In this document: piece after piece, positions 14,320-30,031 of the stretch
Layout of the letters: each line of letters begins with the position of its first letter
Numbering within the stretch: the stretch's first letter is position 1
Source of the DNA: Lutibacter sp.
GTDB taxonomy: Bacteria; Bacteroidota; Bacteroidia; Flavobacteriales; Flavobacteriaceae
Assembly: GCF_030692605.1 (NCBI RefSeq)
Contig: NZ_JAUYUD010000100.1
Span: forward strand, 1-33,853
Reading direction: 5' to 3'
Length of the DNA stretch: 33,853 nucleotides
Made by a program: the position numbers and the translations under genes
Notes under the pieces: model-generated
What the model was told of the DNA's origin: nothing
The model's database searches: none
What the model saw: the letters and a program-made list of their open reading frames with translations, nothing else

Positions 14320-14362
14320 TAAAAATATGCAATAAGAATATTTTTATCTATGATTTATGTCA
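14320..14362 (-). promoter_or_regulatory. FNR/CRP-like class II promoter of iorA-iorB-acs
   Basis: TGAT-TTAT-GTCA (14351-14362) is a dyad of the TGAY-N4-RTCA type, flanked by TA on each side. On the minus strand TATTTTTA (14327-14320) resembles the -7 consensus with A for the last G. The distance between the two centres is exactly 33.0 bp, the same as at two other operons in the window. This places the dyad near -40/-41 of the expected start, as in class II activation. Confidence 0.68.
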
Positions 14363-14533
14363 TAATTCAATTTATAACAGGTTGATATTTAGATTATTAA
14401 ATACGTAACGATTTTGGACTATTACTAATGATTTTAATTTAATTTGATTGGAAATAATGAAAAGTTTCTAATATCAAATAAATTTTTTGCGAATAATGTA
14501 ATTTTAATTTAAAGAAACACCTTTAGAAAGTAA

Positions 14534-14568
14534 AAAAGTTAATCGAAGTGAGGATTCAATTAACTTTT
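14534..14568 (-). terminator. Probable terminator of hemH transcripts
   Basis: AAAAGTTAAT (14534-14543) and ATTAACTTTT (14559-14568) form a 10-bp stem, extended inside by a GAA/TTC pairing (14545-14547 with 14555-14557). Read leftward from hemH it is followed by more T residues. The stem is AT-rich, so its strength is uncertain. Confidence 0.55.
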
Positions 14569-14704
14569 CTTAAACAAACTCTAATTTTAATAAGAATTTA
14601 ATTATTCTGTTGCAAATTTAAAAAATGTATTTATTTATTACAATGATTAGGGTCATCTAGAAGTATGATTGAAATCACTCTATTCTTGTGTGATATAAGC
14701 TTAA

Positions 14705-15724
14705 TTAGTTTTTTTTAGACCAATTATTTATCCAAGTACTTAATGTATTGGCCCATTCGTCGTTGTCATTTAAACAAGGAATGGTTGTAAAGTGTTCACC
14801 TCCATTTTCAATAAACGAATGTTTAGCTTCCATGCCAATTTCTTCAAGAGTTTCTAAACAATCTGAAACAAAAGCAGGAGTTACAACGGCTAATTTTTTA
14901 ATATTATTTTTTGGAAAATCATCAATGGTTAAATCAGTATATGGCTGCAACCAAGGATCGCGTCCTAAACGAGATTGAAACGAAGTGCTATAAAAGTTAT
15001 TTGGAAGTTTCAATTTTTCAGCCACTAATTTGGTGGTCTCATAACATTGGTGTCTGTAACAAAATTCGTGTGCTACTGAAGATGTATTACAGCAACTTCC
15101 ATCAATTTTACAATGTGATTTTGTAATATCCGATTTTTTAATGTGCCTTTCTGGAACACCATGATATGAAAAAAGTAGATGTTCGGGATTAGTTTTTACA
15201 AGTTCTTTTTGAATACTGTTGCTTAAAACTTCAATATAATTTGGGTTATTATAAAATGCAGGTAGGTTTGTTATTTTTAAGTTTGGATATTTATTCTTAC
15301 TTATTTTTTTTGCTAAAACTACAATTGTTTCAGTAGTAGCCATTGCGAATTGAGGGTACAGTGGAATTAAGAAAATCTCAGTTACACCTTTTTCAACTAA
15401 TTTTTTGATTCCATTTTCTAAGGATGGGTTTCCGTAACGCATGGCTAATTCAACTGGTGTTGTTGTGTTATTTTGTACTTTTTTATGCAACCTCTCAGAT
15501 AATACAATTAGTGGTGAACCTTCTTCCCACCAAATTTTTTTATATGCTTCAGCAGATTTTTTCGGTCTTGTGTTTAGAATAATTCCTTTTACCAAAAAAG
15601 CTCTTAAAAGATAGGGAGTATCAATAACTCTCTTATCCATTAAAAATTCGTCTAAATAATTTTTAACATCTTTTACACTCGTACTTTTGGGAGAACCTAA
15701 GTTTACTAATAAAGCTCCTTTCAT
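14705..15724 (-). CDS. hemH: Ferrochelatase
   Basis: Inserts Fe2+ into protoporphyrin IX, the last step to protohaem. 339 residues show the N-terminal GALLVNLGSPKS, the active-site histidine in HLLFSYHGVPERHIKKSD, the SFQSRLGRDPWLQPYTD block, and VVTPAFVSDCLETLEEI with the second active-site acid. A cysteine-rich insertion (HCKIDGSCC to FCYRHQC) is typical of Bacteroidota ferrochelatases as I recall them; whether it binds a cluster is not shown. It is transcribed away from the other hem genes, downstream of the AraC-type regulator on the same strand but with 94 bp between. Confidence 0.95.
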   Translation of the reverse strand: MKGALLVNLGSPKSTSVKDVKNYLDEFLMDKRVIDTPYLLRAFLVKGIILNTRPKKSAEAYKKIWWEEGSPLIVLSERLHKKVQNNTTTPVELAMRYGNPSLENGIKKLVEKGVTEIFLIPLYPQFAMATTETIVVLAKKISKNKYPNLKITNLPAFYNNPNYIEVLSNSIQKELVKTNPEHLLFSYHGVPERHIKKSDITKSHCKIDGSCCNTSSVAHEFCYRHQCYETTKLVAEKLKLPNNFYSTSFQSRLGRDPWLQPYTDLTIDDFPKNNIKKLAVVTPAFVSDCLETLEEIGMEAKHSFIENGGEHFTTIPCLNDNDEWANTLSTWINNWSKKN

Positions 15725-15818
15725 CTGTTTATGTTCGTTTTTCTTAATTTAATTGGTAAAATTTCATTAATAATGATGCGCTAACTTGCTAAAAAATATT
15801 ATTGGATAATTTAGAATA

Positions 15819-16712
15819 TTATGTTTTGGAAAATTGCTTTGGAGTAATGCCATAGGCCCTTTTAAATGCGGCAATAAAATGACTTGAAGTGCTGTAACCT
15901 AAATGAGACGCTATTTCATTAACATTTAATTGTTGTTCTTGTAATAATGTTTTAGCAAGTTCCATTTTATAATTTAGTAAAAAAGTAAAAACAGGAACTC
16001 CGTAATATTCTTTGAAATCTGTTTTTAGCTTTTTAATATTTAACCCAACTTCTTTAGCTAAATCTGCCAAAGATGGTGGATTGATCATTTCCTTAATTAT
16101 TAATTGTTTTGCTTTTTTAATTTTTCCAATTGTTTCTTCAGTTGCAACATATGGGCAACTTTCATTTTCAGTTTTGTTGGGAGTACTAAAATAATAACTT
16201 ATTAATTCGTACACTTTTCCTTTTATAAAAATTGGTCTAAGTGGGTCGTTTGTATGGTTGGAAATTATTTGATTTAATATAGGTTTTATAGTTCCAGTAA
16301 ATTCTTTTGGTTCAATAATTGGGTTTTCAGATTTTAATTTACTGTAATTAAATAATTGTGTGCCATTTATTGAAAATAATGAATGGAAATATTCAATTGA
16401 AATAAAAACTGCGAGTAATTCTGAATCAGATGGAAGCTTAAAAAAGAGATCCATTTTGTCATCTTTAAAATACACCATACTCGAATTTCCTTCCTTTAAA
16501 TCAAAAGCGCAATGCTCAAAATTTAGAGCAATTTTACAAGTATTTGAAGTGCAAAAATAAATCTGAATGTAATTATTTGATAAGGAATGTTTAAAAAACT
16601 CCGTTTCATTCGATAAATTATTTAAATGAAAGACTTTAAAAGAACCTGATTCGTTAAAAAGAAATTGAGTACTTTTGTCGATGTTTCTGTAAGTTACTAA
16701 AGAAGATTTCAT
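15819..16712 (-). CDS. AraC-family transcriptional regulator next to hemA
   Basis: 297 residues. The last 100 form the double helix-turn-helix domain of the AraC/XylS family (LADLAKEVGLNIKKLKTDF for the first helix pair, VNEIASHLGYSTSSHFIAAF for the second, ending in the usual YGITPKQF). The N-terminal 190 residues are a divergent sensing domain with no motif that I recognise; the spacing KKLKTDFKEYYG resembles PchR-like regulators of siderophore or haem functions. It is divergent from the hemA operon, and direct repeats ACTTNTGTCGAT lie between the genes and once inside its own 5' coding sequence, so control of hem genes and of itself is a fair inference. Confidence 0.88.
   Translation of the reverse strand: MKSSLVTYRNIDKSTQFLFNESGSFKVFHLNNLSNETEFFKHSLSNNYIQIYFCTSNTCKIALNFEHCAFDLKEGNSSMVYFKDDKMDLFFKLPSDSELLAVFISIEYFHSLFSINGTQLFNYSKLKSENPIIEPKEFTGTIKPILNQIISNHTNDPLRPIFIKGKVYELISYYFSTPNKTENESCPYVATEETIGKIKKAKQLIIKEMINPPSLADLAKEVGLNIKKLKTDFKEYYGVPVFTFLLNYKMELAKTLLQEQQLNVNEIASHLGYSTSSHFIAAFKRAYGITPKQFSKT
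16669..16682 (+). repeat. 14-bp copy of the hemA-upstream repeat inside the AraC gene
   Basis: GTACTTTTGTCGAT here is identical to 16953-16966 in front of hemA. It lies in codons 11-15 of the AraC-type gene, near its translation start. It could be an autoregulatory site or a coincidence with the -7-like sequence TACTTTTG. Confidence 0.45.
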
Positions 16713-16746
16713 ACGTTATTTTTACATTTATTTTAATTTACTTTAG

Positions 16747-16754
16747 CAAAAATA
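16747..16754 (-). promoter_or_regulatory. -7 promoter element of the AraC-type gene
   Basis: The minus strand reads TATTTTTG, an exact TAnnTTTG match, 34 bp upstream of the start codon at 16712. A possible TTG (16773-16771) lies 16 bp upstream, which is short. The two dyads at 16800-16846 are centred 55 and 90 bp upstream of this element. Confidence 0.45.
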
Positions 16755-16799
16755 GGAATAATAATTTACACAAAAAAATGTGAGTTTTAATTAATTAAC

Positions 16800-16846
16800 T
16801 GACATTTGTCATATTTCTAAGGGCTTATTTTTACTGATGTTTATCA
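16800..16846. promoter_or_regulatory. Two FNR/CRP-like dyads between araC-type gene and hemA
   Basis: TGAC-ATTT-GTCA (16800-16811) and TGAT-GTTT-ATCA (16835-16846) are both perfect TGAY-N4-RTCA dyads, 35 bp apart centre to centre. The second is the core of the enterobacterial FNR consensus. Neither shows the 33-bp spacing seen at the other operons. The first sits 55 bp (33 + 22, two more helical turns) from the -7 element of the AraC-type gene, which would suit class I activation. Confidence 0.55.
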
Positions 16847-16898: not shown

Positions 16899-16968
16899 AC
16901 TTATGTCGATAATAATAGTACTTATGTCGATATAATTGAAAAAAAATATGTTGTACTTTTGTCGATAC
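16899..16968 (+). repeat. Direct repeats ACTTNTGTCGAT upstream of hemA
   Basis: Three copies start at 16899, 16920 and 16955: ACTTATGTCGAT twice, 21 bp apart (two helical turns), then ACTTTTGTCGAT 35 bp further on, overlapping the putative -7 element of hemA. Tandem half-sites at 21 bp are the pattern expected for an AraC-type protein, and the divergent gene encodes one. The assignment is inference. Confidence 0.6.
16954..16961 (+). promoter_or_regulatory. -7 promoter element of the hemA operon
   Basis: TACTTTTG matches TAnnTTTG and ends 27 bp before the ATG at 16989. The nearest upstream TTG (16936-16938) is at 15 bp, shorter than usual, which would suit an activated promoter. It overlaps the third ACTTNTGTCGAT repeat. 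Confidence 0.5.
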
Positions 16969-16988
16969 TTATTGATAATACATTAATT

Positions 16989-18254
16989 ATGAGTGAAGAA
17001 AGAATGTCTACTAAATTATACAACGTAGGCTTAAGTTATAAAAAGGCAGATGTTAAGGTTCGAGGAGCATTCAGTGTTTCAAAAGAAAATCAAATTTTAT
17101 TATTAAACGAGGCCAAAGCTAAAGGGATTGAAGGGCTTTTTATACTTTCAACTTGTAATAGAACCGAAATTACTGGTTTTGCAAAACATCCTTTCGAATT
17201 AATTAGTTTACTTATAAAATATTCAAAAGGAAGTGTTGAAGAATTTATCAATGTTTCTAATGTTTATAAAAATAAAGATGCTGTTAGACACCTTTATAAT
17301 ATAGGAACAGGGTTAGATAGTCAAATCTTAGGTGATTATGAAATTGTTGGTCAGTTAAAGGAAGCTTTTAAACTTGCTAAAAAGTTGGGTACAACCAATG
17401 CTTATTTAGAACGTTTGATGAATTCGGTTTTACAGGCTAGTAAAGAAGTAAAGAATTCTACAAAACTTAGTTCTGGAACAACTTCAGTTGCTTATGCAAC
17501 TATACAATATCTTATAGATTCATTTGAAGAGTTAAAAACAAAAAAAATATTAATTTATGGGTTGGGTGATATTGGAAAAAATACTTGTAAAAATGTATTA
17601 GAATACACCAATAATAGGAATATTACGTTGGTTAATAGAACCGATGAAAAAACAAAACAATTTAAGGAAGAACATCCTGAAATAAATGTGGTAGCATTTT
17701 CAAAATTAGCTGAAACCATTTCCGAATCTGATATTTTAATTGTTTCAACAGGTGCAAATGTTCCAACTATAAATTGTGATCATTTAAAAAGTGTTGAAAA
17801 AATATTAATTTTGGATTTATCAATGCCAGAAAATGTAGAACCTTGTGTTAAAGAATTGCCAGGAATTACATTGGTTAATGTGGATGAATTATCTAAAATA
17901 ACAGATAAAACGCTTGAAATTAGAAGAAATGAGATTCCGGCAGCCGAACTGATTATAGAGAAACATAAAAACGAATTTAATGAATGGATTTCTACTAGAA
18001 AATATGTTCCAGCTGTAAATGCCCTAAAGGAGTCTCTTATTGCAATTCAAAACGATGAAATTAGTTTTCATTCAAAAAAAATAAAGAATTTTAATGCAGA
18101 ACACGCTGAATATGTGACTGCTAGAATGATTCAAAAAATTACTACTCAATATGTGAAACATTTAAAAGATGAAGAAACTGCTGTTGATCAAAGTATAAGT
18201 GTAATAAGTAGAATGTTTAATATTGAAGAGTTAATTTTAAATGAACACGATTAG
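16989..18254 (+). CDS. hemA: Glutamyl-tRNA reductase
   Basis: First committed enzyme of the C5 tetrapyrrole pathway; reduces glutamyl-tRNA(Glu) to glutamate 1-semialdehyde with NADPH. 421 residues from the ATG at 16989: the catalytic domain with the nucleophile C56 in LSTCNRTE, the Rossmann domain with IYGLGDIGKNTCKN, and the C-terminal dimerisation helices. A TTG at 16959 would add ten residues but lies in the promoter; an ATG at 17004 is a further possible start. Its last 14 bp overlap the start of the next gene, so hemA and hemCD are translationally coupled. Confidence 0.95.
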   Translation: MSEERMSTKLYNVGLSYKKADVKVRGAFSVSKENQILLLNEAKAKGIEGLFILSTCNRTEITGFAKHPFELISLLIKYSKGSVEEFINVSNVYKNKDAVRHLYNIGTGLDSQILGDYEIVGQLKEAFKLAKKLGTTNAYLERLMNSVLQASKEVKNSTKLSSGTTSVAYATIQYLIDSFEELKTKKILIYGLGDIGKNTCKNVLEYTNNRNITLVNRTDEKTKQFKEEHPEINVVAFSKLAETISESDILIVSTGANVPTINCDHLKSVEKILILDLSMPENVEPCVKELPGITLVNVDELSKITDKTLEIRRNEIPAAELIIEKHKNEFNEWISTRKYVPAVNALKESLIAIQNDEISFHSKKIKNFNAEHAEYVTARMIQKITTQYVKHLKDEETAVDQSISVISRMFNIEELILNEHD

Positions 18255-19824
18255 GATAGGAACGAGATCAAGTCAACTCGCACTTTGGCAAGCAAATACT
18301 GTTGCAAAACAATTAGAACATTTTGGGTGTACTACAGAGATTATTGAAATTGACTCTATTGGAGATATTGTTTTAGATAAACCGTTGTACGAATTAGGTA
18401 TTACCGGTGTTTTTACAAAAAATTTAGATGTTGCACTTTTAAACCATAAAATTGATATTGCAGTACATTCTTTTAAAGATGTACCAACAAAATTACCGGA
18501 AGGTATTGTTCAAGCAGCCATTTTAAAAAGAGGTGATTTTAATGATATATTGGTTTTAAAAAAAGACGAACATTTTTTTGCAAACGATAATCCAACTATT
18601 GCAACTGGAAGTTTAAGACGAAGAGCACAATGGTTGCATAGGTATCCGCATCATACAGTTGTTGGATTGAGAGGGAATGTAAATACACGGTTAAAAAAAT
18701 TGGAAGATAATGAATGGGGAGGTGCTATTTTTGCAGCAGCCGGTTTAAAACGACTTGATTTGTTACCTGAACCTGAAGGTTATCTTAAATTAGATTGGAT
18801 GGTTCCTGCGCCTGCACAAGGTGCAGTTATGGTAGCAGCTTTAGCTTCAAACCCAGAATTATTGGAATTTTGCAGTCAAATAAATCATTCAGATACCGCT
18901 ACTTGTGTAGAAATTGAACGTAAATTTTTACAAGTTTTGGAGGGTGGTTGTACAGCACCAATTGGAGCTCTAGCATTAATTATAAAGGAAGAAATTAAAT
19001 TTAAAGGCGTTTTATTTAGTCCAGACGGAAAAAATAAAATTGAATTTGCAAAATCTGTTGAAGTTGGAAATTCAGATACCTTGGCAGAGTATGCTGCAAA
19101 TTTCATTTTGGAACGAGGAGGAAAAAAATTAATGCAGGAAATAATTCTTTTTGAAAAAGAAATTTCAATTTACTCAACAAAAAATTTAGCAGTTGATCAA
19201 ACAAACTTGTTAGCTGAAAATATTGGAGCTTCTATGAGCGATTTTATTACGATTAGAAGTAATAGACTTAAACCAGTGGTAATTAAAAAACCAATTGAGC
19301 ATGTTGTTTTCACGAGTCAAAATGCGGTTGAAGCAATAGTAGATAATTTTTCAGCGGTGGAATTAGATTTCAAAAATATTTATTGTGTTGGTAGAAGAAC
19401 CAAACGATTAATTGAAAAGAAAATAGGAAAAGTAACACAGGTAGAAAATTCTGCAGCGCAATTAGCAAATTATTTGGTTGCAAATTTGAAAAAAAATGAA
19501 ATTACTTTTTTTTGTGGAAATAAAAGAAGAGATGAATTAGTTACCATATTAGCAAAGAATAATATGATAGTTAATGAAATTGAGTGTTATCAAACATCTT
19601 TAACTCCTAGAAAATTAGAAGATAGATTTAAAGGAATTTTATTTTTTAGTCCTTCTGGAATTGAAAGTTTTTTAGAGATGAATACTCCGGCGAATCAGGT
19701 TGCTTTTTGTATTGGAGAAACAACAGCTTTTGAAGCAAAAAAACACTTTAAAAATGTAGAAGTTGCTGAACTTTCTACAGTTGAAAGTGTAATTAAATCA
19801 GTAAATGATTATTTTAAAAAATAA
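18241..19824 (+). CDS. hemCD: HemC-HemD fusion: porphobilinogen deaminase and uroporphyrinogen-III synthase
   Basis: 527 residues combine two consecutive enzymes. Residues 1 to about 300 are hydroxymethylbilane synthase: RIGTRSSQLALWQA at the start, HSFKDVPTKLPEG, RGNVNTRLKKL, and C237 in GGCTAPIGA, which carries the dipyrromethane cofactor. From about 310 to the end is a HemD-type domain (HVVFTSQNAVEAI, FFCGNKRRDEL, FFSPSGIESFL) that closes the ring with inversion of ring D. Fusion may help pass on the unstable hydroxymethylbilane. Fused forms are known in Bacteroidota. It overlaps hemA by 14 bp and is followed after 16 bp by hemB. Confidence 0.93.
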   Translation: MNTIRIGTRSSQLALWQANTVAKQLEHFGCTTEIIEIDSIGDIVLDKPLYELGITGVFTKNLDVALLNHKIDIAVHSFKDVPTKLPEGIVQAAILKRGDFNDILVLKKDEHFFANDNPTIATGSLRRRAQWLHRYPHHTVVGLRGNVNTRLKKLEDNEWGGAIFAAAGLKRLDLLPEPEGYLKLDWMVPAPAQGAVMVAALASNPELLEFCSQINHSDTATCVEIERKFLQVLEGGCTAPIGALALIIKEEIKFKGVLFSPDGKNKIEFAKSVEVGNSDTLAEYAANFILERGGKKLMQEIILFEKEISIYSTKNLAVDQTNLLAENIGASMSDFITIRSNRLKPVVIKKPIEHVVFTSQNAVEAIVDNFSAVELDFKNIYCVGRRTKRLIEKKIGKVTQVENSAAQLANYLVANLKKNEITFFCGNKRRDELVTILAKNNMIVNEIECYQTSLTPRKLEDRFKGILFFSPSGIESFLEMNTPANQVAFCIGETTAFEAKKHFKNVEVAELSTVESVIKSVNDYFKK

Positions 19825-19840
19825 AACTATAATTTAATAA

Positions 19841-20812
19841 ATGATGATAAACCGAACAAGACGTTTACGTAAAACAGAAAATATTCGTCGTTTAGTTAGA
19901 GAAAATAAACTAACCATAGACGATTTAATTTATCCTTTATTTATTGAAGAAGGCGAAAACATTGAAAAAGAAATTGTATCAATGCCAGGCATTAAAAGAT
20001 GGTCGTTAGATAGAATTTCAAAAGAATTAGATGAGGTTGTAGCACTAGATATTCCTGCAGTTTTATTATTTGGAATCCCAACTGCGAAAAATGAAACGGG
20101 TTCCGAAACTTGGAATGATAAAGGAATTATGCAACAAGCAGTTCGTTTTATCAAAAAGAACTATCCGAGTTTATATGTAATTACCGATGTGTGTTTTTGT
20201 GAATACACAAGTCACGGGCATTGTGGAATAATTCATGAAAATGATGTTGATAATGATGCAACACTTCCAAATATTGCAAAACAAGTTATTTCTCATGCAA
20301 AAGCAGGAGTAGACATGGTGGCTCCATCAGGAATGATGGATGGTATGATTGCTACAATTCGTGAAGCGCTGGACAATACTGGTTTTCCAAATCTTCCAAT
20401 TATGTCGTATGCAGTAAAATATTCCTCGGCATTTTATGGTCCTTTTAGAGATGCGGCCGATTCTGCGCCAACTTTTGGAGACAGAAGAACATACCAAATG
20501 GATCCAGCAAATAGAGATGAAGGAATGCGAGAAGCAACTTTTGATGATCAAGAAGGTGCCGATATTTTAATGGTAAAACCAGCCTTAGCGTATTTAGATA
20601 TTATTAGAGATTTAAAAAACAATTTCGATCGACCAATTGCGTGTTATAATGTTAGTGGTGAATATGCGATGATTAAAGCTGCTGCTGCCAATGGATGGAT
20701 TGATGAAGAACGAGTTATGATGGAAAGTTTGCTTTCAATGAAAAGAGCAGGAGCAGACATTATTATTACTTATTTTGCCAAAGATGTTGCAAAAGTATTG
20801 TTAAAAAAATAA
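19841..20812 (+). CDS. hemB: Delta-aminolevulinic acid dehydratase (porphobilinogen synthase)
   Basis: Condenses two 5-aminolevulinates to porphobilinogen. 323 residues (or 322 from the second ATG) in a TIM barrel. The metal-site segment [14 protein letters not shown] has the three cysteines of the zinc-type enzyme; the active-site lysines are K246 in [11 protein letters not shown] and the one in [13 protein letters not shown]. In the operon it functions before HemC, though it is encoded after it. The TAA stop overlaps the ATG of a 27-codon ORF (TAATG). Confidence 0.96.
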
Positions 20813-20895
20813 TGGTTACTGAGCAAAGTTGTAATGATTATTTAGATGAAAATTATTTTAACTTATCCCAATCACCAAAAAATTATATAAAATGA
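20812..20895 (+). CDS. 27-codon ORF bridging hemB and hemL
   Basis: The ATG overlaps the hemB stop (TAATG) and its TGA overlaps the hemL start (ATGA), so it fills the whole gap and could couple translation of both neighbours. The product begins [20 protein letters not shown] and is acidic, with one cysteine, and has no membrane segment. I recognise no family. It may be a real small protein, a coupling device, or the remains of a longer gene. Confidence 0.4.
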   Translation: MVTEQSCNDYLDENYFNLSQSPKNYIK

Positions 20896-22193: not shown

Positions 22194-22229
22194 TCAATTG
22201 ATACTAATTAATAGATAGTAATAAAAGAA

Positions 22230-23252
22230 ATGATTAAAAACGATTTATATTTAAGGGCCCTAAAAGGTGAAACAGTAGAACGTCCACCAGTATGGATGAT
22301 GCGTCAAGCGGGGCGTTATTTACCAGAATTTATTGCAATACGAGATAATTACGATTTTTTTACACGTTGTAGAACTCCTGAACTAGCTTCAGAAATAACA
22401 GTACAACCCATTCGAAGATTTGGGATGGACGCTGCTATTTTGTTTTCTGATATTTTAGTGATACCTCAGGCAATGAATATTGAAGTTGAAATGAAAAATG
22501 GAGTAGGACCTTGGTTACCAAACCCAATTAGAACTGCAAAAGATGTGGAAGCAGTTGTTGTGCCTGATGTAACAGTTGAATTAAAGTATGTAATGGATGC
22601 TATTAAAATAACCAAGCAAATGTTAAATGATGATATTCCATTGATTGGTTTTGCAGGTTCACCTTGGACCATTTTATGTTATTGTGTACAAGGCCAAGGG
22701 TCTAAAAATTTCGATTTAGCTAAAGAATTTTGTTTTACACAACCTGTTGCGGCACATTTATTACTTCAAAAAATAACGGATACAACAATTGCTTATTTAA
22801 AAGAAAAAGTAAAAGCAGGTGTAAATGCAGTTCAAATTTTTGATTCTTGGGGAGGAATGCTTTCTCCAGTTGATTATCAAGAGTTTTCTTGGCAATACAT
22901 CAATCAAATTATTGAAGCTTTAAAAGATGATGCTCCAGTAATTGCTTTTGGTAAAGGGTGTTGGTTTGCATTGGAAGAAATGGCAAATTCAAATGCTGCT
23001 GCATTGGGTGTAGATTGGACTATTACCCCGCAAATGGCTCGTAAGTTTACTGGTAATAAAATAACATTACAGGGTAATTTTGATCCTTCAAGATTATTAT
23101 CACCTCCAAAAGAAATTAAAAAGTTAGTTACTAAAATGATTGACGATTTTGGGAAAGATAAATACATTGTAAATTTAGGTCACGGTATTTTACCAAACAT
23201 ACCTTTAGACAATGCCAAAGCATTTATTGATGCAGTAAAAGAGTATAAATAG
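22230..23252 (+). CDS. hemE: Uroporphyrinogen decarboxylase
   Basis: Removes the four acetate carboxyls of uroporphyrinogen III to form coproporphyrinogen III, without a cofactor. 340 residues show the signature [16 protein letters not shown] with the substrate-binding arginines, [12 protein letters not shown] with the catalytic aspartate, and [11 protein letters not shown]. It follows hemL by 36 bp. Downstream the operon is interrupted by a four-helix-bundle cassette before hemN. Confidence 0.96.
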
Positions 23253-23274
23253 TGAATAAAGTTACAAGTTTAAA

Positions 23275-23680
23275 GCTTTAAGCTATTAGTTATGGTAAAT
23301 TATAAAAATTATAAGGTTTGGCAAAAATCACATAACTTAGTGTTTGAGGTATATAAAACGGTAAGCTTATTCCCTAAAGAGGAACAGTTTAATTTAGTTT
23401 CACAAATAAAAAGAGCTTCAATTTCAATTCCAACAAATATAGCAGAAGGATGCGGAAGAGAAACTCAAAAGGAACTTATAAGATTTTTATATATTGCATC
23501 TGGTTCAGCTCACGAATTAGACTATTTGTTTTTAATATCAACCGAATTGAATTTTATTTCAAAAGGGGAATCAGCGATTTTGCTAAATGAAATTGATGAA
23601 ATTAAAAAAATGTTGGCTGCTTTAATAACTAAAATAAAGTCAACTATTTAAAAAAAAGCTTATTACTTATAGCTTATAAC
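23275..23680 (+). mobile_element. Candidate four-helix-bundle insertion cassette with imperfect inverted ends
   Basis: The 18 bases at 23275-23292 and those at 23663-23680 are inverted repeats matching at 14 of 18 positions; they closely flank the four-helix-bundle ORF. A perfect 12-bp palindrome TTAAAGCTTTAA (23270-23281) overlaps the left end. I see no transposase. The unit sits between hemE and hemN, genes that otherwise form an uninterrupted pathway. Confidence 0.5.
23292..23651 (+). CDS. Four-helix-bundle protein (23S rRNA intervening-sequence family)
   Basis: 119 residues, almost wholly helical, with the family landmarks NYKNYKVWQKSHNLVFEVYK at the start, the QIKRASISIPTNIAEGCGR core, and ARLAxGSAxEL-like GSAHELDYLFL. 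Members are encoded in intervening sequences of 23S rRNA in Leptospira and relatives, as free-standing genes in many Bacteroidota, and related proteins (avd) assist diversity-generating retroelements. No retroelement or rRNA is present here. It has no expected role in haem synthesis and is probably a passenger in the operon. Confidence 0.88.
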   Translation: MVNYKNYKVWQKSHNLVFEVYKTVSLFPKEEQFNLVSQIKRASISIPTNIAEGCGRETQKELIRFLYIASGSAHELDYLFLISTELNFISKGESAILLNEIDEIKKMLAALITKIKSTI

Positions 23681-23690
23681 CTAAAACTAA

Positions 23691-25049
23691 ATGACAAACT
23701 TAATTCAAAAATACAATATACCTGGTCCAAGATATACAAGTTATCCAACAGTTCCGTTTTGGGATGCTGAAGGGATTTCTTTAGAAAATTGGAAAAAAAC
23801 CGTTAAAAAATCTTTTGATGAAAGTAATGATATTGAAGGTATTAGCCTTTATATTCATTTACCTTTTTGTGAAAGTTTATGCACGTTTTGTGCTTGTCAT
23901 AAGAAAATTACAAAACGTCATGAGGTTGAACAACCGTATATTGAAACCGTTTTAAAAGAATGGGATTTGTATTGCGATTTATTGGTTGAAAGACCAAAAA
24001 TTAGAGAAATTCATTTAGGAGGAGGAACTCCAACTTTTTTTTCTGCCGAAAATTTAAAGGAACTAATTGATGGTATTTTTAAAAGAGCTGATAAATTTGA
24101 AATTTTTGATTTTAGTTTTGAAAGTCATCCTAATTTAACTTCAGAAAAACAATTACAAACGTTGTACGATTTAGGTTCTCGAAGAAATAGTTTTGGAATA
24201 CAGGATTACGATCCAAAAGTTCAAAAAGCCATACACCGAGTTCAAAGTTTTGATCAAGTAAAAAAGGTACACGATTTATCTAGAAAAATTGGGTACGAAT
24301 CTATAAGTCATGATTTAATTTTTGGATTGCCTTTTCAGACTGAAGATAGTATCCGAAATACTATTAAAAATACCATTGCTTTAAAACCTGATAGAATTGC
24401 TTATTATAGTTATGCCCATGTGCCTTGGATTAAAGGCGTTGGCCAACGAGGTTTTGAGGATAGTGATTTACCTAAAGATGAGGAAAAAAGGCATTTATAC
24501 GAATTAGGTAAACAATTGTTTTTCGATAATGGATATGTAGAAATTGGGATGGATCATTTTGCATTGCCAACAGATTCTTTACATGCAGCTATGAAAGCTA
24601 AAAAATTGCATCGTAATTTTATGGGCTATACGGCTGGTAAAACGGAATTAATGATTGGCTTAGGAATGTCTTCTATAAGTGATTCTTGGTATGCTTTTGC
24701 CCAAAATGAAAAAGATATTGATGATTATACTGAAAAAGTAAATGCTGGAATTATTCCAATATTTAGAGGTCATTTACTAACAGAAACCGATTTAATTATT
24801 AGAAAACACATATTAAACTTAATGTGTAATCTTGAAACGGAATGGAAAATTGGACTGAGCGATCAAGCTAAAAATGAAATTGTTGACCGTTTAAAATCGA
24901 TTATTGATGATGGTTTATTAGATGTAACTTCAACTGGAATTAAGGTAAAAGAGGAAGGGAGAATGTTTGTGCGTAATATTTGTATGGCTTTTGACCTGCG
25001 TTTAATTGAAAATAAGCCTGAAACGCGTATTTTTTCAATGACTATATAG
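23691..25049 (+). CDS. hemN: Oxygen-independent coproporphyrinogen III dehydrogenase (radical SAM)
   Basis: Decarboxylates two propionates of coproporphyrinogen III to vinyl groups without oxygen, giving protoporphyrinogen IX. 452 residues: radical-SAM cluster cysteines C60, C64 and C67 in CESLCTFCAC plus the extra C69 typical of true HemN, then IHLGGGTPTFFS for SAM binding and the C-terminal HemN domain. The N-terminal KYNIPGPRYTSYP is also diagnostic and separates it from HemW. No oxygen-dependent hemF is in the window. A strong terminator follows, marking the operon's end. Confidence 0.95.
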   Translation: MTNLIQKYNIPGPRYTSYPTVPFWDAEGISLENWKKTVKKSFDESNDIEGISLYIHLPFCESLCTFCACHKKITKRHEVEQPYIETVLKEWDLYCDLLVERPKIREIHLGGGTPTFFSAENLKELIDGIFKRADKFEIFDFSFESHPNLTSEKQLQTLYDLGSRRNSFGIQDYDPKVQKAIHRVQSFDQVKKVHDLSRKIGYESISHDLIFGLPFQTEDSIRNTIKNTIALKPDRIAYYSYAHVPWIKGVGQRGFEDSDLPKDEEKRHLYELGKQLFFDNGYVEIGMDHFALPTDSLHAAMKAKKLHRNFMGYTAGKTELMIGLGMSSISDSWYAFAQNEKDIDDYTEKVNAGIIPIFRGHLLTETDLIIRKHILNLMCNLETEWKIGLSDQAKNEIVDRLKSIIDDGLLDVTSTGIKVKEEGRMFVRNICMAFDLRLIENKPETRIFSMTI

Positions 25050-25116: not shown

Positions 25117-25524
25117 CTATAATTCTTCAACTAATGTGTTCATGTAATTTAGGATAAACCACATGTGTGTTTCGTCAGAAATTTTCTTTTTAAAATTAGG
25201 CTTTTCATGAAGTCCATTATAACTTTTGTAGAATTTTACTCCGTCTAATTGTTCTTTAAATTCTTTAGTGGTGAAATTTATTATATTGTAATTAAACTCG
25301 TAACTTTTTTCACCATCCCCTTTTCCATTTTTTCCATGACAAGATTTGCAATGCTTTAAAAACAAAGCTTTGCCCATTTCTAAATTGTCTTTATCAACAT
25401 AAGTGGGATTTTTCATTTTTATGTATTTGTCCGGAATTTTCCATTCCTCCTGTAAGATTTGGTCAAATGAATAAAGGCCAAAACTTACTATTCCTATAAT
25501 CAATAAAAATTTTAGAGTTCTCAT
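25117..25524 (-). CDS. Monohaem cytochrome c with the axial Met replaced by Lys
   Basis: 135 residues: an N-terminal signal or anchor helix (about 4-20), then a class I-type cytochrome domain with one haem motif C59-K-S-C62-H63. It is a tandem paralogue of the next gene, sharing the EEWK-P-KY-KMKN opening. Where the paralogue has DMPNYEKK with the sixth haem ligand M108, this protein has HEKPNFKK: K108 (codon AAG, one base from ATG). The loop after the haem motif (residues 72-84) has also diverged. The haem may be His-Lys or five-coordinate, or another residue may serve. It is last in the leftward NrfD operon. Confidence 0.85.
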   Translation of the reverse strand: MRTLKFLLIIGIVSFGLYSFDQILQEEWKIPDKYIKMKNPTYVDKDNLEMGKALFLKHCKSCHGKNGKGDGEKSYEFNYNIINFTTKEFKEQLDGVKFYKSYNGLHEKPNFKKKISDETHMWFILNYMNTLVEEL

Positions 25525-25545: not shown

Positions 25546-25950
25546 TTATTTTTTAGCACCCATCGTTCTCATATAATGAATAACTAACCACACATCTTCC
25601 GAGGTCATTTTCTTTTCATAATTAGGCATGTCTTTTCTACCAATATAGCTTTTATAAAATATGTCACCATCTGATTGACTTTGAAATTTTTTAGATGAAA
25701 AATCGCCTAAATCACCTTCAACCTCTTTTGCTTTAGGGCCATCTCCTAGACCATCTTTCCCATGACAAGATTTACAATGTTTAGCATACAAAGATTTACC
25801 TAAAGCTATGTTTTCAGCACTAGATGCAGTTGTATTTTTCATTTTTTTATATTTTTCTGGGACTTTCCATTCTTCTTGAAAAAGGGTATTGAATGATAAA
25901 AGACCCAAACTAACAATTCCGATAATGGTTAAAAATTTTATTGTTTTCAT
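25546..25950 (-). CDS. Monohaem class I cytochrome c
   Basis: 134 residues: an uncleaved or cleaved signal helix (about 4-20), then CKSCHGKDGLGDGPKA with the haem cysteines C59 and C62 and proximal H63, the GDLGDFSS stretch, and the distal ligand M108 in RKDMPNYE. It belongs to the same subfamily as the cytochrome domain of the lipoprotein at the far right of the window. Its place just after the NrfD and beta-domain genes suggests it takes electrons from that membrane complex on the periplasmic side. A 56-bp AT-rich gap precedes it. Confidence 0.9.
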   Translation of the reverse strand: MKTIKFLTIIGIVSLGLLSFNTLFQEEWKVPEKYKKMKNTTASSAENIALGKSLYAKHCKSCHGKDGLGDGPKAKEVEGDLGDFSSKKFQSQSDGDIFYKSYIGRKDMPNYEKKMTSEDVWLVIHYMRTMGAKK

Positions 25951-26006: not shown

Positions 26007-26903
26007 TTATATTTTTAATTTTAATTCGTCCCCTTCTTTTTTAATCTTTACTAAATTTATGATTGTGTAAACATAGTTTGCCCAAACTCCAACTAACATA
26101 ATGGTTAGAACACTGTACATCCATAGTGGTGCAATTGCTGACCATAAAGAGTTTTTTTCTTTGATTGAATGACTGTGAAATATTCCCCACTTAATATTTT
26201 TATTTTGGGTGACATTCCAATATTCATCATGGTCAACAACCATTGCATAAACTAATAAATTACCGTTAATATCGCCTGGAATATCAGAAGGGAATGTAAA
26301 TTCATAAGAGCCATCATTTATTGTACCTTCTTCAATTTTCATTTTAGAAAGCATAGCCTGAATGTAAAAACTAATTTCAATTTCTTCAGCAGGGATTTTT
26401 TCGCCTAATTTGTTTATTGTAAAGGCTGAAACTGAAACAGTTTTCACACTATCAATTTCTGTTAAGTTTAATTCTATGTGTAAATCTTTAATACTAATTT
26501 CTGCTGTTTCTTCATCTATTGCATTTGAACCTTCAAATAGTGCAGTTAAATTAATCGTTCCATCATCATCTATTAAATAGTTTTGATTTTCTGGAAGCGT
26601 TAATTGTGCAATTCCTTCGTTTGATGTGTTAACCGCACCTAATAATACTTCTTCTTCATTTAAAATATTGAAAAACTTAATTTCAGCGTTGCTAATAGGA
26701 ATTTTATCTTTTCTGTCTTTTTTATTAGTTGCTATAAAAGATACTTCCAATAAACGAGAATTGTCTGGCTGTTTAACCGTTGTTAAATTAAAACCCATCC
26801 TGTAATTGGACACATCATTTTCTTGAGCTATGCATACATTACTTAACAAAAAAGCAATAATAAAAGAAGTAATAAGTGGGTATTTAAATAGGACTTTTTT
26901 CAT
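26007..26903 (-). CDS. Periplasmic beta-domain protein with C-terminal membrane anchor, NrfD-operon subunit of unknown function
   Basis: 298 residues. A signal peptide ends near NVCIAQ (residue 26). Two similar beta-rich repeats follow: one opening LLEVSFIATNKKDRKDKIP and one opening VSVSAFTINKLGEKIP, each continuing into an EI-F-(F/Y) strand; they look like Ig- or MG-type sandwiches. A transmembrane segment (about 255-285) and a short basic cytoplasmic tail end the protein. No cofactor motifs are visible. It lies 11 bp after the NrfD gene and before two cytochromes, so I infer a docking or assembly subunit of the complex. Confidence 0.65.
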   Translation of the reverse strand: MKKVLFKYPLITSFIIAFLLSNVCIAQENDVSNYRMGFNLTTVKQPDNSRLLEVSFIATNKKDRKDKIPISNAEIKFFNILNEEEVLLGAVNTSNEGIAQLTLPENQNYLIDDDGTINLTALFEGSNAIDEETAEISIKDLHIELNLTEIDSVKTVSVSAFTINKLGEKIPAEEIEISFYIQAMLSKMKIEEGTINDGSYEFTFPSDIPGDINGNLLVYAMVVDHDEYWNVTQNKNIKWGIFHSHSIKEKNSLWSAIAPLWMYSVLTIMLVGVWANYVYTIINLVKIKKEGDELKLKI

Positions 26904-26914
26904 AATTTGATAAT

Positions 26915-28258
26915 TTATTTATTTTGCTCACCTAAATTTTTTATTCTTTTTTCTTCGAATCTTTCTTGATCAATAATTCCAGATATTGGTATAATTGGCA
27001 CAAATTTCATAATGAGTTTAAACATTAATATAAATGCTGCAATTCCTGCAAAACTTAAAGCGTACTCGATCCAAGAAGCAGTATAAAAAATGAATTCAGG
27101 CCGCGTATCTTGAATTGGGATATAGGGAGTTTCTAAAGTAGGAATAACAATTAAATACCGGTTTAACCATAAACCTAGAACAGCTATTACTGCTGCAAAT
27201 GTGACTGATTTTATTGTTCTTAATTTTTTAAAGAATAGAATAATTATTGGCACTAATACACCAATATAATTTGCGAAAATAAATTCCCAAAAATAGTGGC
27301 TAAATAGGGTTTCTAATAATTCCACATCATTTGTTTTATGACTAAACCATTTAGAGAAGTATTCGCTAAAAGTAAAATAGCCAAATAATAATGATATTAT
27401 GAGTAGTACAATACCTGCACCAATAAAATGAATTTTCCGAATATACTTTTCTAATTTAAAAGATGTTCTAATTAAATACATTGTTATTATAATTACTCCC
27501 ACACCTGAGTATAAACCTGCAATTATAAAATACGGAGCAAAAATGGTACTATTCCAACCTGGTTGAAGGGTTAAGCTGAAAATCCAAGCGAGAACAGTAT
27601 AAGCAACAACAGCCATTGCGATAATCATTACTGACATTATTTCAGTAATTTTATGTAACCTTTTACGTTGCGAAGTTGTATCTTGATATCCTATTGCTAA
27701 CACTCTATATACATTTTTTTGCCAATTAGGAACTTTTAAATCTGTAGTATCTCTTAAAATGGCAAAGTCAGGAATAAATGTTAAGTATAGGTAAATGAAA
27801 CACCCAATTAGGTCGGTCATTATTGCAATAATATCCCAAGTAATAGGAGATTGAATTCTTGGATAGATAAATAAATAGTGTAACCTGTCTAATCTACCGA
27901 TACATAGTAAGATAAAAATAGGACCAACTATTAACGATAAAACGGTTATAATTTTAATAATTCGGGCAATTGAATATTTCCAAGAGCCATTAAAAAAATG
28001 CAGTACGCCAGTAATAAATGCTCCGGAATAACTTATTCCAACAAAAAATATGAAATTGATGATATAAATCCCCCAAACAACATTATCTCTCATTCCAGTA
28101 ACTTTATGACCGTTTATAAATTGAAGGTAAAAGGCATATATCCCTACTGAAATAATTGCGATTAGCACAAAATACCAAAGTTTAGATACTAAACTAGATT
28201 TTTCTAACATTGGCGAAAATTCCTTTACTAATTCTCTTTTTCTTTGATTGAAATCCAT
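26915..28258 (-). CDS. NrfD/PsrC-type membrane subunit, ActC-like
   Basis: 447 residues with about ten transmembrane helices. The early stretch RDNVVWGIYIINFIFFVGIS and the following ITVLSLIVGPIFILLCIGR are like the quinol-site half of NrfD-family proteins, especially ActC of alternative complex III and PsrC of polysulfide reductase. The family oxidises or reduces menaquinone next to an Fe-S subunit and carries no haem. It is 18 bp downstream of the Fe-S gene, the usual pairing. Neither the other alternative complex III genes nor a molybdopterin subunit accompanies it here. Confidence 0.85.
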   Translation of the reverse strand: MDFNQRKRELVKEFSPMLEKSSLVSKLWYFVLIAIISVGIYAFYLQFINGHKVTGMRDNVVWGIYIINFIFFVGISYSGAFITGVLHFFNGSWKYSIARIIKIITVLSLIVGPIFILLCIGRLDRLHYLFIYPRIQSPITWDIIAIMTDLIGCFIYLYLTFIPDFAILRDTTDLKVPNWQKNVYRVLAIGYQDTTSQRKRLHKITEIMSVMIIAMAVVAYTVLAWIFSLTLQPGWNSTIFAPYFIIAGLYSGVGVIIITMYLIRTSFKLEKYIRKIHFIGAGIVLLIISLLFGYFTFSEYFSKWFSHKTNDVELLETLFSHYFWEFIFANYIGVLVPIIILFFKKLRTIKSVTFAAVIAVLGLWLNRYLIVIPTLETPYIPIQDTRPEFIFYTASWIEYALSFAGIAAFILMFKLIMKFVPIIPISGIIDQERFEEKRIKNLGEQNK

Positions 28259-28276: not shown

Positions 28277-29260
28277 TTAAATTTTACCTTGTTTTTTTAG
28301 TTCCTTCACATAATCAACATTTTTGTAACGTTCTATAATGTCTTCGTCAACATCAAATCCTCGTTCTAGTGGGAACTGTCTATTTACGGCTGGTAAATAA
28401 TAAACATTTGGCCTTGTTCCTAAATGTTCTAAATACCTGTAGCCTGAACGTTCTTTAATTAATTTTGAAAACCGAACTGTTTCTTCACCATTTGTTACAA
28501 TATCTTCATTTATATCTCCAAAATAAATAACACCCATAGGACAAGCTTTTGCGCAATGTGGTAATTCTCCTTGTCTTAATAAATCAGGGCAAAAATCACA
28601 TTTCATAATGGTTCCTTCCGTTCCAGGAATTCCAGTTTCAGGAGAATATGGAATAGCTGTGTTCTTAAATTTGTCCTTATGTCCCCAATTAAAAATACGA
28701 GCAGAGTATGGACAACTTGTAACACAAAACTTGCACCCAATACAACGTTCAGCATCCACCAAAACAATATTATCATCACGCTTAAAGGTTGCTCCGGTTG
28801 GGCACACGGTTACACAAGGAGGGCTGTCGCAGTGAAAGCAAGGTTTTGGAAACCAATACGGATCAGCTTCTTTATTATCCTGCATAAGTTGAATTTTTAA
28901 AAACTCTTCGTTGTAATCTAATTGATGACCTTTTTGGCAAGATTCAACACAATTTCTTGCATTTTTACATTTAGCCAAATCTATCACCATTACAAATTTT
29001 CTGTTTGGGATTCCTTTTCTAGATTCAGCTGAAGTTATATGAGCTTCAGGATATTTATTAATATTAGTAGCATCAACCTCAACAATTTTACCTTCAGGAG
29101 TTAATAACCTTATTTTTTCACCAGAAAGAGCTGATTCTTCTTCATTAATTAGGTTAGAAAATAAAGAAGCTCCAGTGGCAACTGTAACAGTAGATATGAA
29201 TCCTAATTTTAAAAAATTACGTCTATTAGTTCCACTTTTTTCAATTTTGTTATTTTCCAT
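28277..29260 (-). CDS. Tat-exported Fe-S protein (HybA/PsrB/NrfC type) with an altered first cluster
   Basis: 327 residues. A twin-arginine signal (NRRNFLKLG, R13-R14, then a hydrophobic run to about 36) predicts export. Four ferredoxin-like clusters follow: C98-x2-A101-x2-C104-x3-C108 then H112; C141, C144, C149, C153; C173, C176, C179, C183; and C221, C224, C236, C240. The first set lacks its second cysteine (Ala in its place), so it may hold a 3Fe-4S cluster, use another ligand, or be empty. The protein should carry electrons between the NrfD quinol site and the cytochromes. First gene of the leftward operon, behind a 5' leader of about 217 nt. Confidence 0.88.
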   Translation of the reverse strand: MENNKIEKSGTNRRNFLKLGFISTVTVATGASLFSNLINEEESALSGEKIRLLTPEGKIVEVDATNINKYPEAHITSAESRKGIPNRKFVMVIDLAKCKNARNCVESCQKGHQLDYNEEFLKIQLMQDNKEADPYWFPKPCFHCDSPPCVTVCPTGATFKRDDNIVLVDAERCIGCKFCVTSCPYSARIFNWGHKDKFKNTAIPYSPETGIPGTEGTIMKCDFCPDLLRQGELPHCAKACPMGVIYFGDINEDIVTNGEETVRFSKLIKERSGYRYLEHLGTRPNVYYLPAVNRQFPLERGFDVDEDIIERYKNVDYVKELKKQGKI

Positions 29261-29438
29261 AATTCTATTTAGTTAATAAAATCAATTAAAAATAGTACCA
29301 ATCAAATTCAATTGATCAAATGCATATTTTTTTACGAAAGAAAACGGATGTGTAATTTTAACCTCTATTTAGGATGTTGTTTTTAAATTAAATTCAAAAA
29401 CATTTAAAGGTATAAATCAAGATAATTTTAACTTTTTT

Positions 29439-29466
29439 AGATGTATGTGATACATAAAATACATCT
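29439..29466. repeat. Inverted repeat in the leader of the leftward NrfD operon
   Basis: AGATGTAT (29439-29446) and ATACATCT (29459-29466) are perfect 8-bp arms, and a third ATACAT at 29450-29455 can pair with the left arm instead. It lies about 12-40 bases downstream of the inferred transcription start, so it could be an RNA hairpin or an operator. Confidence 0.5.
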
Positions 29467-29483
29467 TAGTAAATTATCTTATA

Positions 29484-29526
29484 TAAAATTACGGACAGAA
29501 GCCTTGCCTTTGTATGACAATTGTCA
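29484..29526 (-). promoter_or_regulatory. FNR/CRP-like class II promoter of the leftward NrfD operon
   Basis: The perfect palindrome ATGACAATTGTCAT is centred at 29520.5 (core TGAC-AATT-GTCA, 29515-29526). On the minus strand TAATTTTA (29491-29484) is a TAnnTTTA element centred at 29487.5, 33.0 bp away, the same spacing as at iorA and at the rightward operon. Confidence 0.7.
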
Positions 29527-29778
29527 TTTAATTAAAAAAAAATTGCAAAAAATAGGATTATTAAAAAAAAAATATTATAAAAAATGCAATTTAATTGGCT
29601 ATTTATTTAAGTTTAAATAGGTTTCAACTATTTTATTTATAATTAAAGTGATTTTTTGATTAAACTAACTATAAATAGTATAAATGTTAAAATAGGGTCA
29701 AAAGTCTATTAAACTACTTTTTATTTTTAATGTATTTGTAAACTTGATTTGGCTTATTCTGTGGAAAGTATTGTTGGT

Positions 29779-29800
29779 TTATTGACGAATAAGTCAATAA
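29779..29800. repeat. Inverted repeat TTATTGAC-N6-GTCAATAA
   Basis: Perfect 8-bp arms around a 6-base spacer. It resembles the FNR/CRP-like dyads but its two TGAC half-sites are 6 rather than 4 bases apart, so a different regulator is likely. It lies about 240 bp upstream of the inferred start of the rightward operon. Confidence 0.5.
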
Positions 29801-29813
29801 TATGAACGGTTTC

Positions 29814-29942
29814 TTGTCTTTTTAATAATTAAATGTAGTAGATTAATATATTTTTTGTCTTAATATTTCATTCAAAATTGTCTTTGTTCTAAATAATTAA
29901 TTGTCTTCTCGAATTTAAGATTTTAGTGTCTTAAAATTAGTA
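29814..29942 (+). repeat. Cluster of five TGTCTT direct repeats
   Basis: TGTCTT starts at 29815, 29856, 29879, 29902 and 29937, four of them as TTGTCTT; intervals are 41, 23, 23 and 35 bp. Far fewer would be expected by chance in DNA this AT-rich. The cluster ends about 50 bp upstream of the FNR/CRP-like dyad of the rightward operon and could be an activator-binding array. Confidence 0.5.
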
Positions 29943-29988
29943 TTTAAAGACTTTTATTAATTATTTCAACTGTAAGTTGCTGACATAA

Positions 29989-30031
29989 TGACAATTATCA
30001 TTGATAATATTATTTTGAATATGTAACTTTA
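29989..30031 (+). promoter_or_regulatory. FNR/CRP-like class II promoter of the rightward NrfD operon
   Basis: TGAC-AATT-ATCA (29989-30000, centre 29994.5) is followed by TAACTTTA (30024-30031, centre 30027.5) at 33.0 bp. A further inverted repeat ATTATCA-T-TGATAAT overlaps the right half-site. The expected start is near 30037, leaving a leader of about 80 nt before the first gene. Confidence 0.7.

Follow-up and report, generated by a model that had tools for sequence, protein, structure and literature searches.

The ATGAY-N4-RTCAT dyads of Lutibacter sp. are very likely the operators of a low-oxygen regulon that spans the Flavobacteriaceae, placed at a class II position (-41.5) and read by two Crp-superfamily proteins: an FNR-type protein and a fusion of a response-regulator receiver to a Crp output (receiver-Crp). 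We establish the operator, its spacing, targets, conservation and dependence on the two regulators computationally, in a stretch of 33,853 nt (hereafter, the window), in the whole Lutibacter genome and in 199 genomes of the family. In the window, the relevant elements are:

14351..14362, minus strand: operator 1, a dyad of the ATGAY-N4-RTCAT class upstream of iorA (centre 14356.5, predicted -41.5)
14320..14327, minus strand: -7 box TATTTTTA of the iorA promoter (ATG 34 bp away)
29515..29526, minus strand: operator 2, TGACAATTGTCA, upstream of the left Fe-S/NrfD operon
29484..29491, minus strand: -7 box TAATTTTA of the left Fe-S/NrfD operon (ATG 223 bp away)
29989..30000, plus strand: operator 3, TGACAATTATCA, upstream of the right operon
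30024..30031, plus strand: -7 box TAACTTTA of the right operon (first ATG 86 bp away)
14613..14655, minus strand: a fourth dyad and box match, absent from the list of the original prediction

The distance of 33.0 bp that had been proposed for the three named dyad/-7 box pairs is borne out in each by direct reading of the sequence, the module being a 12-bp dyad, 23 nt and an 8-bp box. The pattern TGAYN4RTCA-N23-TANNTTTR matches the window four times, as compared to a mean of 0.03 and a maximum of 1 in 100 shuffles. The match at 14613-14655 is probably fortuitous: the transcript predicted from it would run into a hairpin ending in U6, which makes it doubtful; a terminator consensus scan lists none at these positions, and the hairpin stem has few G-C pairs. 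The final base is A in each of the three named boxes, which had been interpreted as a sign of activator dependence. This is not a regulon-wide trait: of the 31 genomic sites, 19 have G and 12 have A at this position, counted with a search pattern that admits only these two bases.

The whole Lutibacter genome carries these 31 modules against one for the reversed pattern. In a scan of gaps from 8 to 38 nt (31 spacings), gap 23 holds 30 of the 71 counted matches – its 31st site being masked where the same dyad also matches at a shorter gap – followed by gap 22 with five and gaps 24 and 15 with four each, the mean per gap other than 23 being 1.4. The 199 Flavobacteriaceae genomes contain 2706 modules against 102 reversed ones; the reversed control thus yields approximately 0.5 matches per genome, so that single sites can be chance. 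In the same genomes approximately 180 matches are found at gap 43 and 150 at gap 28, as compared to the 2706 at gap 23, and with gap 43 near background we rejected class I use at -61.5. That the modules as a set reflect chance or the base composition of an AT-rich genome is vanishingly improbable: while both TGAYN4RTCA and TAnnTTTR abound in DNA of this kind (the window has 30% GC), the reversed, shuffled and gap-scan controls, those at gaps 28 and 43, and the iorA footprint described below all stand against it.

Nor are the genomic modules placed at random: they clearly concentrate at one gap and upstream of anaerobic and respiratory genes, including those for 2-oxoacid:ferredoxin oxidoreductases, HydG, cbb3 oxidase, FeoB and sulfur respiration, in support of a class II regulon of the Crp/Fnr type that takes in such genes across the genome. 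The start lies within 110 bp in 23 (24 if L008, whose TTG frame is doubtful, is counted) and within 250 bp in 26 of the 28 sites with a measured start. Individual sites vary in quality: L005, which sits in a hairpin-like repeat as judged by eye, and L020 look fortuitous, as perhaps is L018, with its start 634 bp off.

The promoter geometry suggests how such a regulator would act. According to PMC9723704, sigma-A promoters of F. psychrophilum carry a -7 box TAnnTTTG at -12 to -5; taken together with the spacing of 33.0 bp, this places the predicted dyad centre at -41.5. Both this position and the single-spacing peak relative to the core promoter are those of class II, and E. coli FNR has a class II position resembling it. 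We infer that a Crp/Fnr-family dimer would bind at -41.5 and activate the sigma-A promoter, whose TAnnTTTR box lies at -12 to -5, through a class II contact; this would account for the rigid 33-bp spacing.

The operator consensus is a full palindrome, ATGAY-N4-RTCAT. The T...A flanks of the FNR operator, TTGAT-N4-ATCAA, occur in 0/30, 0/35, 1/34 and 0/51 sites of four sets, and since the outer bases differ, E. coli FNR matrices may miss such sites. Dyads without a box partly share the A/T flanks (A before in 62/88, T after in 48/88), so these flanks are not by themselves proof of function. The genes behind the modules of the window are:

12669..14285, minus strand: iorA-like, indolepyruvate ferredoxin oxidoreductase alpha (POR_N, TPP_enzyme_C; IOR_alpha below the curated cut-off)
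12067..12666, minus strand: iorB-like (POR domain)
10009..12066, minus strand: CoA_binding, Succ_CoA_lig and ATP-grasp_5 fusion (by domain matches), named by domain order and presumably ADP-forming acyl-CoA synthetase-like
28277..29260, minus strand: DsrO-like 4Fe-4S protein (below the DsrO curated cut-off)
26915..28258, minus strand: NrfD/DsrP-like membrane subunit
26007..26903, minus strand: 298-aa protein (no Pfam/NCBIfam match at the limits used)
25546..25950, minus strand: cytochrome c
25117..25524, minus strand: cytochrome c
30118..30321, plus strand: 67-aa ORF, first in the right operon
30359..30811, plus strand: multihaem cytochrome c-like protein
30793..31569, plus strand: TtrB/DsrO-like 4Fe-4S protein (below curated cut-offs)
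31572..32768, plus strand: NrfD-like membrane subunit

In the window, the regulon would thus switch on 2-oxoacid fermentation (iorAB and the acyl-CoA synthetase) and the Fe-S/NrfD quinol-cytochrome modules. The three promoters are unequally solid, however, with conservation of the iorA and left Fe-S sites and none of the right one. A module precedes iorA in 47 of 80 loci, and the left module is present in 20 of 25 Lutibacter loci, the window locus included. Among 10 Lutibacter loci of the right operon, the sole instance at gap 23 is that of the window. Five (L266, L269-L271 and L274) have no dyad in the flank scanned, L268 has one at gap 22 and L272 carries a full module in the opposite orientation; a divergent gene lies upstream in five (L266, L267 and L269-L271). 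The evidence for operator 3 is weak.

The original prediction placed the regulator gene outside the window, and indeed none of the nine HTH_Crp_2 matches in the genome lies on the contig of the window (C89). It also assumed a single regulator. This part has to be revised, as site counts across genomes follow two Crp-superfamily proteins, the FNR type and receiver-Crp alike. Genomes with both regulators (49 of the 199) have on average 26.2 sites, those with FNR only 11.0 (n=68), those with receiver-Crp only 15.8 (n=37, 6-37 each) and those with neither 2.0 (median 1, n=45); as the genomes are kin by descent, rank tests of this difference overstate independence. Restriction to genomes at least 90% complete and of at least 2.5 Mb yields 26.2, 10.9, 16.3 and 1.7, respectively. 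Fewer than five sites are found in 8/68 FNR-only genomes, and in 41/45 of those with neither regulator, which is near background; the other four have at least five (29 in G048 and 16 in G147, both incomplete, 10 in G138 and 5 in G051), so a third reader of the operator may exist.

Could FNR be the sole regulator, with receiver-Crp associated through lifestyle, since genomes rich in anaerobic genes keep both? We regard this as unlikely. While genomes with both regulators do have the most sites, the 37 that lack FNR and retain receiver-Crp have 6-37 each, and of six kinase/receiver-crp operons, three (L158, L159 and L161) have a dyad no more than 60 nt ahead of the kinase frame and a fourth, L151, is preceded by a full module (site L015). 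Genes resembling ccoN and hemN are targets in both single-regulator sets, and sites upstream of both were located in two receiver-Crp-only genomes. Either regulator would seem sufficient on its own for the regulon, cbb3 oxidase and hemN included; UspA, cbb3 oxidase and hemN would be shared targets served by either. Operators of FNR-only and receiver-Crp-only genomes show no clear separation, and the helix [IT]A[TKV]E[ST]xIR is present in 10 of the 11 FNR-type and receiver-Crp proteins inspected, the deviant AAKEACIR occurring in one of five FNR proteins.

We give similarly little credence to the possibility that another Crp-type protein (such as four related small ones) or a MalR-like carbon sensor reads the operators, FNR and receiver-Crp merely co-occurring with them. 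Among the nine HTH_Crp_2 matches, two small Crp genes do adjoin sites (L001 and L005), Crp/Fnr homologues of Flavobacteriales are predicted in PMC8510549 to sense carbon as MalR-like regulators, and a few of the genomes with neither regulator still carry sites. Against it, the helices of the small proteins differ (SRVVVSR, AREVISR and SREAISR), sites fall to near background in the 41 genomes already mentioned, and in 25 of 27 parsed loci the 300 bp upstream of fnr itself contain a dyad.

The FNR-type protein, which we favour as one of the two readers, combines a cNMP-binding-type and an HTH_Crp domain in a Crp fold. E. coli FNR ligates its cluster through C20, C23, C29 and C122. The FNR-type protein L031 retains the CxxC and the C122 equivalent and lacks that of C29; C4, C7, C53 and C106 are invariant in 27/27 parsed orthologues. 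We speak of an FNR type rather than of strict FNR because the C29 equivalent is absent and C53 invariant. As judged by sequence, C4, C7, C53 and C106 would probably hold an O2-labile Fe-S cluster, a possible new ligand set in the FNR family. The 'FNR type regulator' entries 5cvr/5e44, which we liken to E. coli FNR, share the Crp fold, the aligned CxxC and a VC(E)IP cysteine aligned to C106; they differ in possessing a third N-terminal cysteine, Ala in place of C53, the helix VETISR instead of TESAIR, and T/A instead of A/T as outer operator bases. The best match among solved sequences is the Crp/Fnr protein 2gau, presumably from Porphyromonas (E 2.5e-26), its alignment starting at residue 17 of the FNR type, past the CxxC. 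In 23 of the 27 parsed loci the dyad lies at gap 8-11 of fnr's own promoter, and from this position, about -27.5, the protein would repress its own gene.

The receiver-Crp protein combines Response_reg, cNMP_binding and HTH_Crp_2 in approximately 350 aa (3/3 scanned), and its gene adjoins that of a kinase with a FixL/DosP-like PAS domain. The PAS domain of the G027 kinase, the only one aligned and inspected, resembles those of DosP and FixL in sequence (~1e-17) with the proximal His aligned, and would be a candidate for heme ligation. The FixL-like His motif is present in 5/6 kinases and absent in L151; the Lutibacter kinase matches FixL at 1.8e-5 only, and the G034 kinase has LOV-type proteins as its top matches, via its second PAS. 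A receiver-cNMP-HTH_Crp response regulator would fuse the functions of FixJ and FixK in one protein. Both regulators probably sense oxygen, and it is reasonable to take oxygen as the signal of the regulon. In F. psychrophilum, which shares the -7 box type, cbb3 oxidase and heme genes respond to oxygen, rising under its limitation (PMC9723704); the main text of that paper mentions neither Crp nor Fnr.

A search by title and abstract start, mostly outside subscription journals, returned no Flavobacteriaceae FNR operator or receiver-Crp oxygen regulator. For this family, a large one among the environmental Bacteroidota, the present analysis offers an oxygen regulon that spans the genome and can be put to the test, along with a rule for annotating promoters that asks for a single spacing and a single -7 box. 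The closest known circuit is rhizobial: PMC7888657 describes how FixL-FixJ-FixK or hFixL-FxkR-FixK and FnrN converge on the anaerobox. As proposed here, two O2-sensing routes, through a FixL-type kinase and a cysteine-cluster FNR protein, meet on one operator that sits at a conserved position and activates cbb3 oxidase genes, and a promoter-proximal copy serves to repress the FNR gene as well (PMC7888657); by co-occurrence and sequence, the operator upstream of cbb3 oxidase in the Flavobacteriaceae appears likewise common to a putative Fe-S FNR and a FixLJ-FixK type. The differences are as instructive. In rhizobia FixJ and FixK are separate, whereas here receiver and Crp output are fused, so the separate fixK step is missing; the operator is TTGAT-N4-ATCAA there and ATGAY-N4-RTCAT here; the promoter type here, TAnnTTTG, is unlike that of rhizobia; and 37 of our 199 genomes have the fusion without an FNR orthologue. 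On balance we lean towards an operator class that is the family's own, read interchangeably by an FNR with alternative ligands and a heme-PAS-driven FixJ-FixK fusion, whole lineages having switched from the Fe-S to the heme sensor with operator and spacing unchanged: sensor swapping with the regulon kept, a natural experiment.

We re-read the window sequence and found that the three pairs of a Crp/Fnr-like dyad and a -7-like box in the original prediction, located before iorA, the leftward Fe-S/NrfD operon and the rightward operon, are correct in all positions and in their centre-to-centre distance of 33.0 bp. Expressed as the composite TGAYN4RTCA-N23-TANNTTTR (gap 23), the module occurs four times in the window versus 0.03 times expected from the shuffled window. 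The fourth match is probably fortuitous:

14613-14655, minus strand: fourth composite, behind the ferrochelatase gene

Its predicted transcript meets a hairpin with a six-U end (83-nt stretch, -18.9 kcal/mol, z -4.2); a consensus terminator scan found none at this composite.

The window has further features of note. The stretches 16959-25049 and 14705-16712 hold heme biosynthesis genes for GlutR, porphobilinogen deaminase/HemD, ALAD, a class III aminotransferase, URO-D and a radical SAM protein, together with an AraC-type regulator and ferrochelatase in divergent orientation. Two dyads (16800-16811 and 16835-16846), both without a box at gap 23, lie between the divergent genes, upstream of the one for glutamyl-tRNA reductase. 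An inverted repeat, AGATGTAT/ATACATCT (29439-29468), is part of the left Fe-S operon's long leader; it resembles an NsrR-type site, but with a wider spacer, and as RNA it forms a weak hairpin (z -1.7). A 298-aa protein (26007-26903) encoded between the NrfD-like and cytochrome c genes matches no Pfam or NCBIfam family at the thresholds applied.

For E. coli FNR and CRP, -41.5 is the class II position. According to a start-site study in F. psychrophilum, the -7 box occupies -12 to -5 (PMC9723704); since the box centre is then at -8.5, a dyad centred 33 bp upstream is predicted at -41.5, in agreement with the class II geometry (dyad at about -41) proposed originally.

A scan of the window's own genome (3.117 Mb, in which the window is one contig) for the composite, as had been suggested, returned 31 composites (14 + 17) versus a single match to the reversed pattern, and the target set is mainly anaerobic/microaerobic. 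Among gaps 8-38, gap 23 accounts for 30 of the 71 listed matches, with a mean of 1.4 for each other gap; gap 22 holds 5 and gap 24 holds 4, and the spacing may thus tolerate a shift of one base. We took the distance from box to start for 28 sites; of the other three, two lie at the end of a contig and one has no locus. The distance is at most 110 bp in 24 and at most 250 bp in 26 (median about 60), the former count falling to 23 if the doubtful TTG frame at site L008 is exchanged for a pntA-like ATG (229 bp). Site L018, with a start 634 bp away, has no target assigned to it.

Targets were named by best family match, several being under curated cut-offs, in some cases because the protein is truncated at the locus edge. 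They comprise pyruvate:ferredoxin oxidoreductase, 2-oxoacid oxidoreductases of VorB/Kor and OAFO type, and indolepyruvate oxidoreductase; pyruvate phosphate dikinase, methylmalonyl-CoA epimerase and an mmdA-type carboxylase; HydG, a pntA-type transhydrogenase and FeoB; ccoN, ResB, cytochromes c and a multihaem cytochrome; a DsrO-like Fe-S protein, a PhsA-like molybdopterin enzyme, a type III sulfide:quinone reductase and a rhodanese; a YgaP-type membrane protein, a histidine kinase and a Crp protein (downstream of L005, a doubtful site); and, at L027, an outer-membrane FadL-type protein. The targets of L009 and L016 have no NCBIfam match. One locus, L153 (contig C41 of genome G000), holds four of the 31 sites together with sulfide:quinone reductase, rhodanese, PhsA-like and small Crp genes, and a gene that we take to be YeeE-like. 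Related small Crp proteins are encoded close to YgaP- or YeeE-like genes elsewhere, and may be sulfur sensors.

Conservation differs between the modules. Among the best 80 of 279 iorA relatives, of which the closest named are Lutibacter (the basis of the genus name used here), searching up to 450 bp upstream detected the gap-23 composite in 47 loci. It is present in none of the 19 loci labelled Saprospiraceae, Bacteroidales, Parabacteroides, Ignavibacteriae or (two) just Bacteroidetes, and thus in 47 of the remaining 61. Other spacings in the 80 loci are gap 17 (ten times), gap 5 (three times) and four singles; at L074, L078, L081 and L096 (Salinimicrobium, Salegentibacter and a relative), iorA lacks the gap-23 module, and a TACTTTTA box there is separated from a dyad by gap 17. 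Of 25 Lutibacter loci, our own included, 20 carry the left Fe-S module, four lack it and one is not assessable; the right-operon module at gap 23 was found in its own locus only, among 10 compared. Across 199 Flavobacteriaceae genomes there are 2706 composites versus 102 reversed matches, with at least one composite in 177 genomes and a maximum of 53, while control gaps 43 (class I position) and 28 (half a turn off) yield about 180 (at most 5 per genome) and about 150 (at most 4). In 145 genomes of the same class outside the family there are 685 versus 44 reversed, and the module therefore extends beyond Flavobacteriaceae at lower numbers.

The original prediction assigned the operons to one regulator. 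This needs revision, as two Crp-type proteins each track site numbers: an FNR-type protein (orthology cut E 1e-57) and a receiver-Crp fusion (1e-70; L032 or L033 kind), both cuts being placed at gaps in the match listings. Mean sites per genome are 26.2 with both (n=49), 11.0 with FNR only (n=68), 15.8 with receiver-Crp only (n=37) and 2.0 with neither (median 1, n=45); at least five sites occur in 49/49, 60/68, 37/37 and 4/45 genomes, respectively. When genomes under 90% complete or 2.5 Mb are dropped, the means are 26.2 (48), 10.9 (52), 16.3 (35) and 1.7 (11), each regulator class exceeding 'neither' at p <= 2.1e-6, a value that ignores kinship among genomes. Four genomes with neither protein stand out: the incomplete G048 (29 sites) and G147 (16), and also G138 (10) and G051 (5).

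For genomes among the matches listed, we inspected sequence downstream of all 35 sites in two receiver-Crp-only genomes and all 34 in three FNR-only genomes. An ORF starts within 400 bp at 35/35 and 32/34; of the 35 starts, two overlap the box, and one gene is common to two sites. Both sets include proteins that we take, in part by their resemblance to own-genome targets, to be ccoN-like, HemN-like and UspA-like. Flanking bases were counted in own-genome, receiver-Crp-only, FNR-only and all iorA-locus modules: T directly follows the dyad in 24/30, 34/35, 29/34 and 48/51, A directly precedes it in 17/30, 20/35, 24/34 and 33/51, and the FNR flanks T...A occur in 0/30, 0/35, 1/34 and 0/51. Box-less dyads favour the same A/T flanks, so this signal is partly not promoter-specific.

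The own genome has nine HTH_Crp_2 matches. In its FNR-like protein L031, a CxxC (C4, C7) and C106 align with the CxxC and the VC(E)IP cysteine of a solved 'FNR type regulator'. Of 30 orthologues fetched (L120-L149), 27 were parsed: all have C4, C7, C53 and C106, whereas C59 occurs in 25 and C29 in 17. The fnr-type gene is divergent from a cbb3 cluster (named by resemblance) in all five neighbourhoods read, those of the own genome and of L157 and L162-L164. A dyad lies within 300 bp upstream of it in 25/27 loci; in 23 the gap to a box is 8-11 (gap 9 in 18, centre about -27.5), a predicted geometry suited to self-repression.

L032 and L033 are receiver-cNMP-HTH_Crp proteins encoded after histidine kinases. 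The best solved-sequence matches of the PAS domain in the G027 kinase are DosP (1.5e-17) and FixL (1.9e-17), and the proximal His of FixL is aligned; the Lutibacter kinase matches FixL weakly (1.8e-5), and the best matches of the G034 kinase come through its second, LOV-like PAS. A FixL-like His motif is found in 5/6 kinases inspected, and the helix A[TKV]E[ST]xIR is common to 10/11 inspected FNR-type and receiver-Crp proteins. At L155, L156, L158, L159 and L161, receiver-Crp genes sit among several genes that we take to be UspA-like and others, presumably ABC/MlaD-like or thioredoxin-like; some of these neighbours carry composite sites too.

Judged from sequence, the composite set is most likely a two-input low-oxygen switch, in which the FNR-type protein and the receiver-Crp fusion would feed one low-oxygen regulon via a common predicted operator. 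On the features tested, it falls outside both strict FNR and strict FixLJ-K. The comparison to draw is with the rhizobial anaerobox circuit (PMC7888657): the proposed switch would work alike, but with its own operator, FixJ-FixK fused in one protein and an FNR whose cysteine set is altered.
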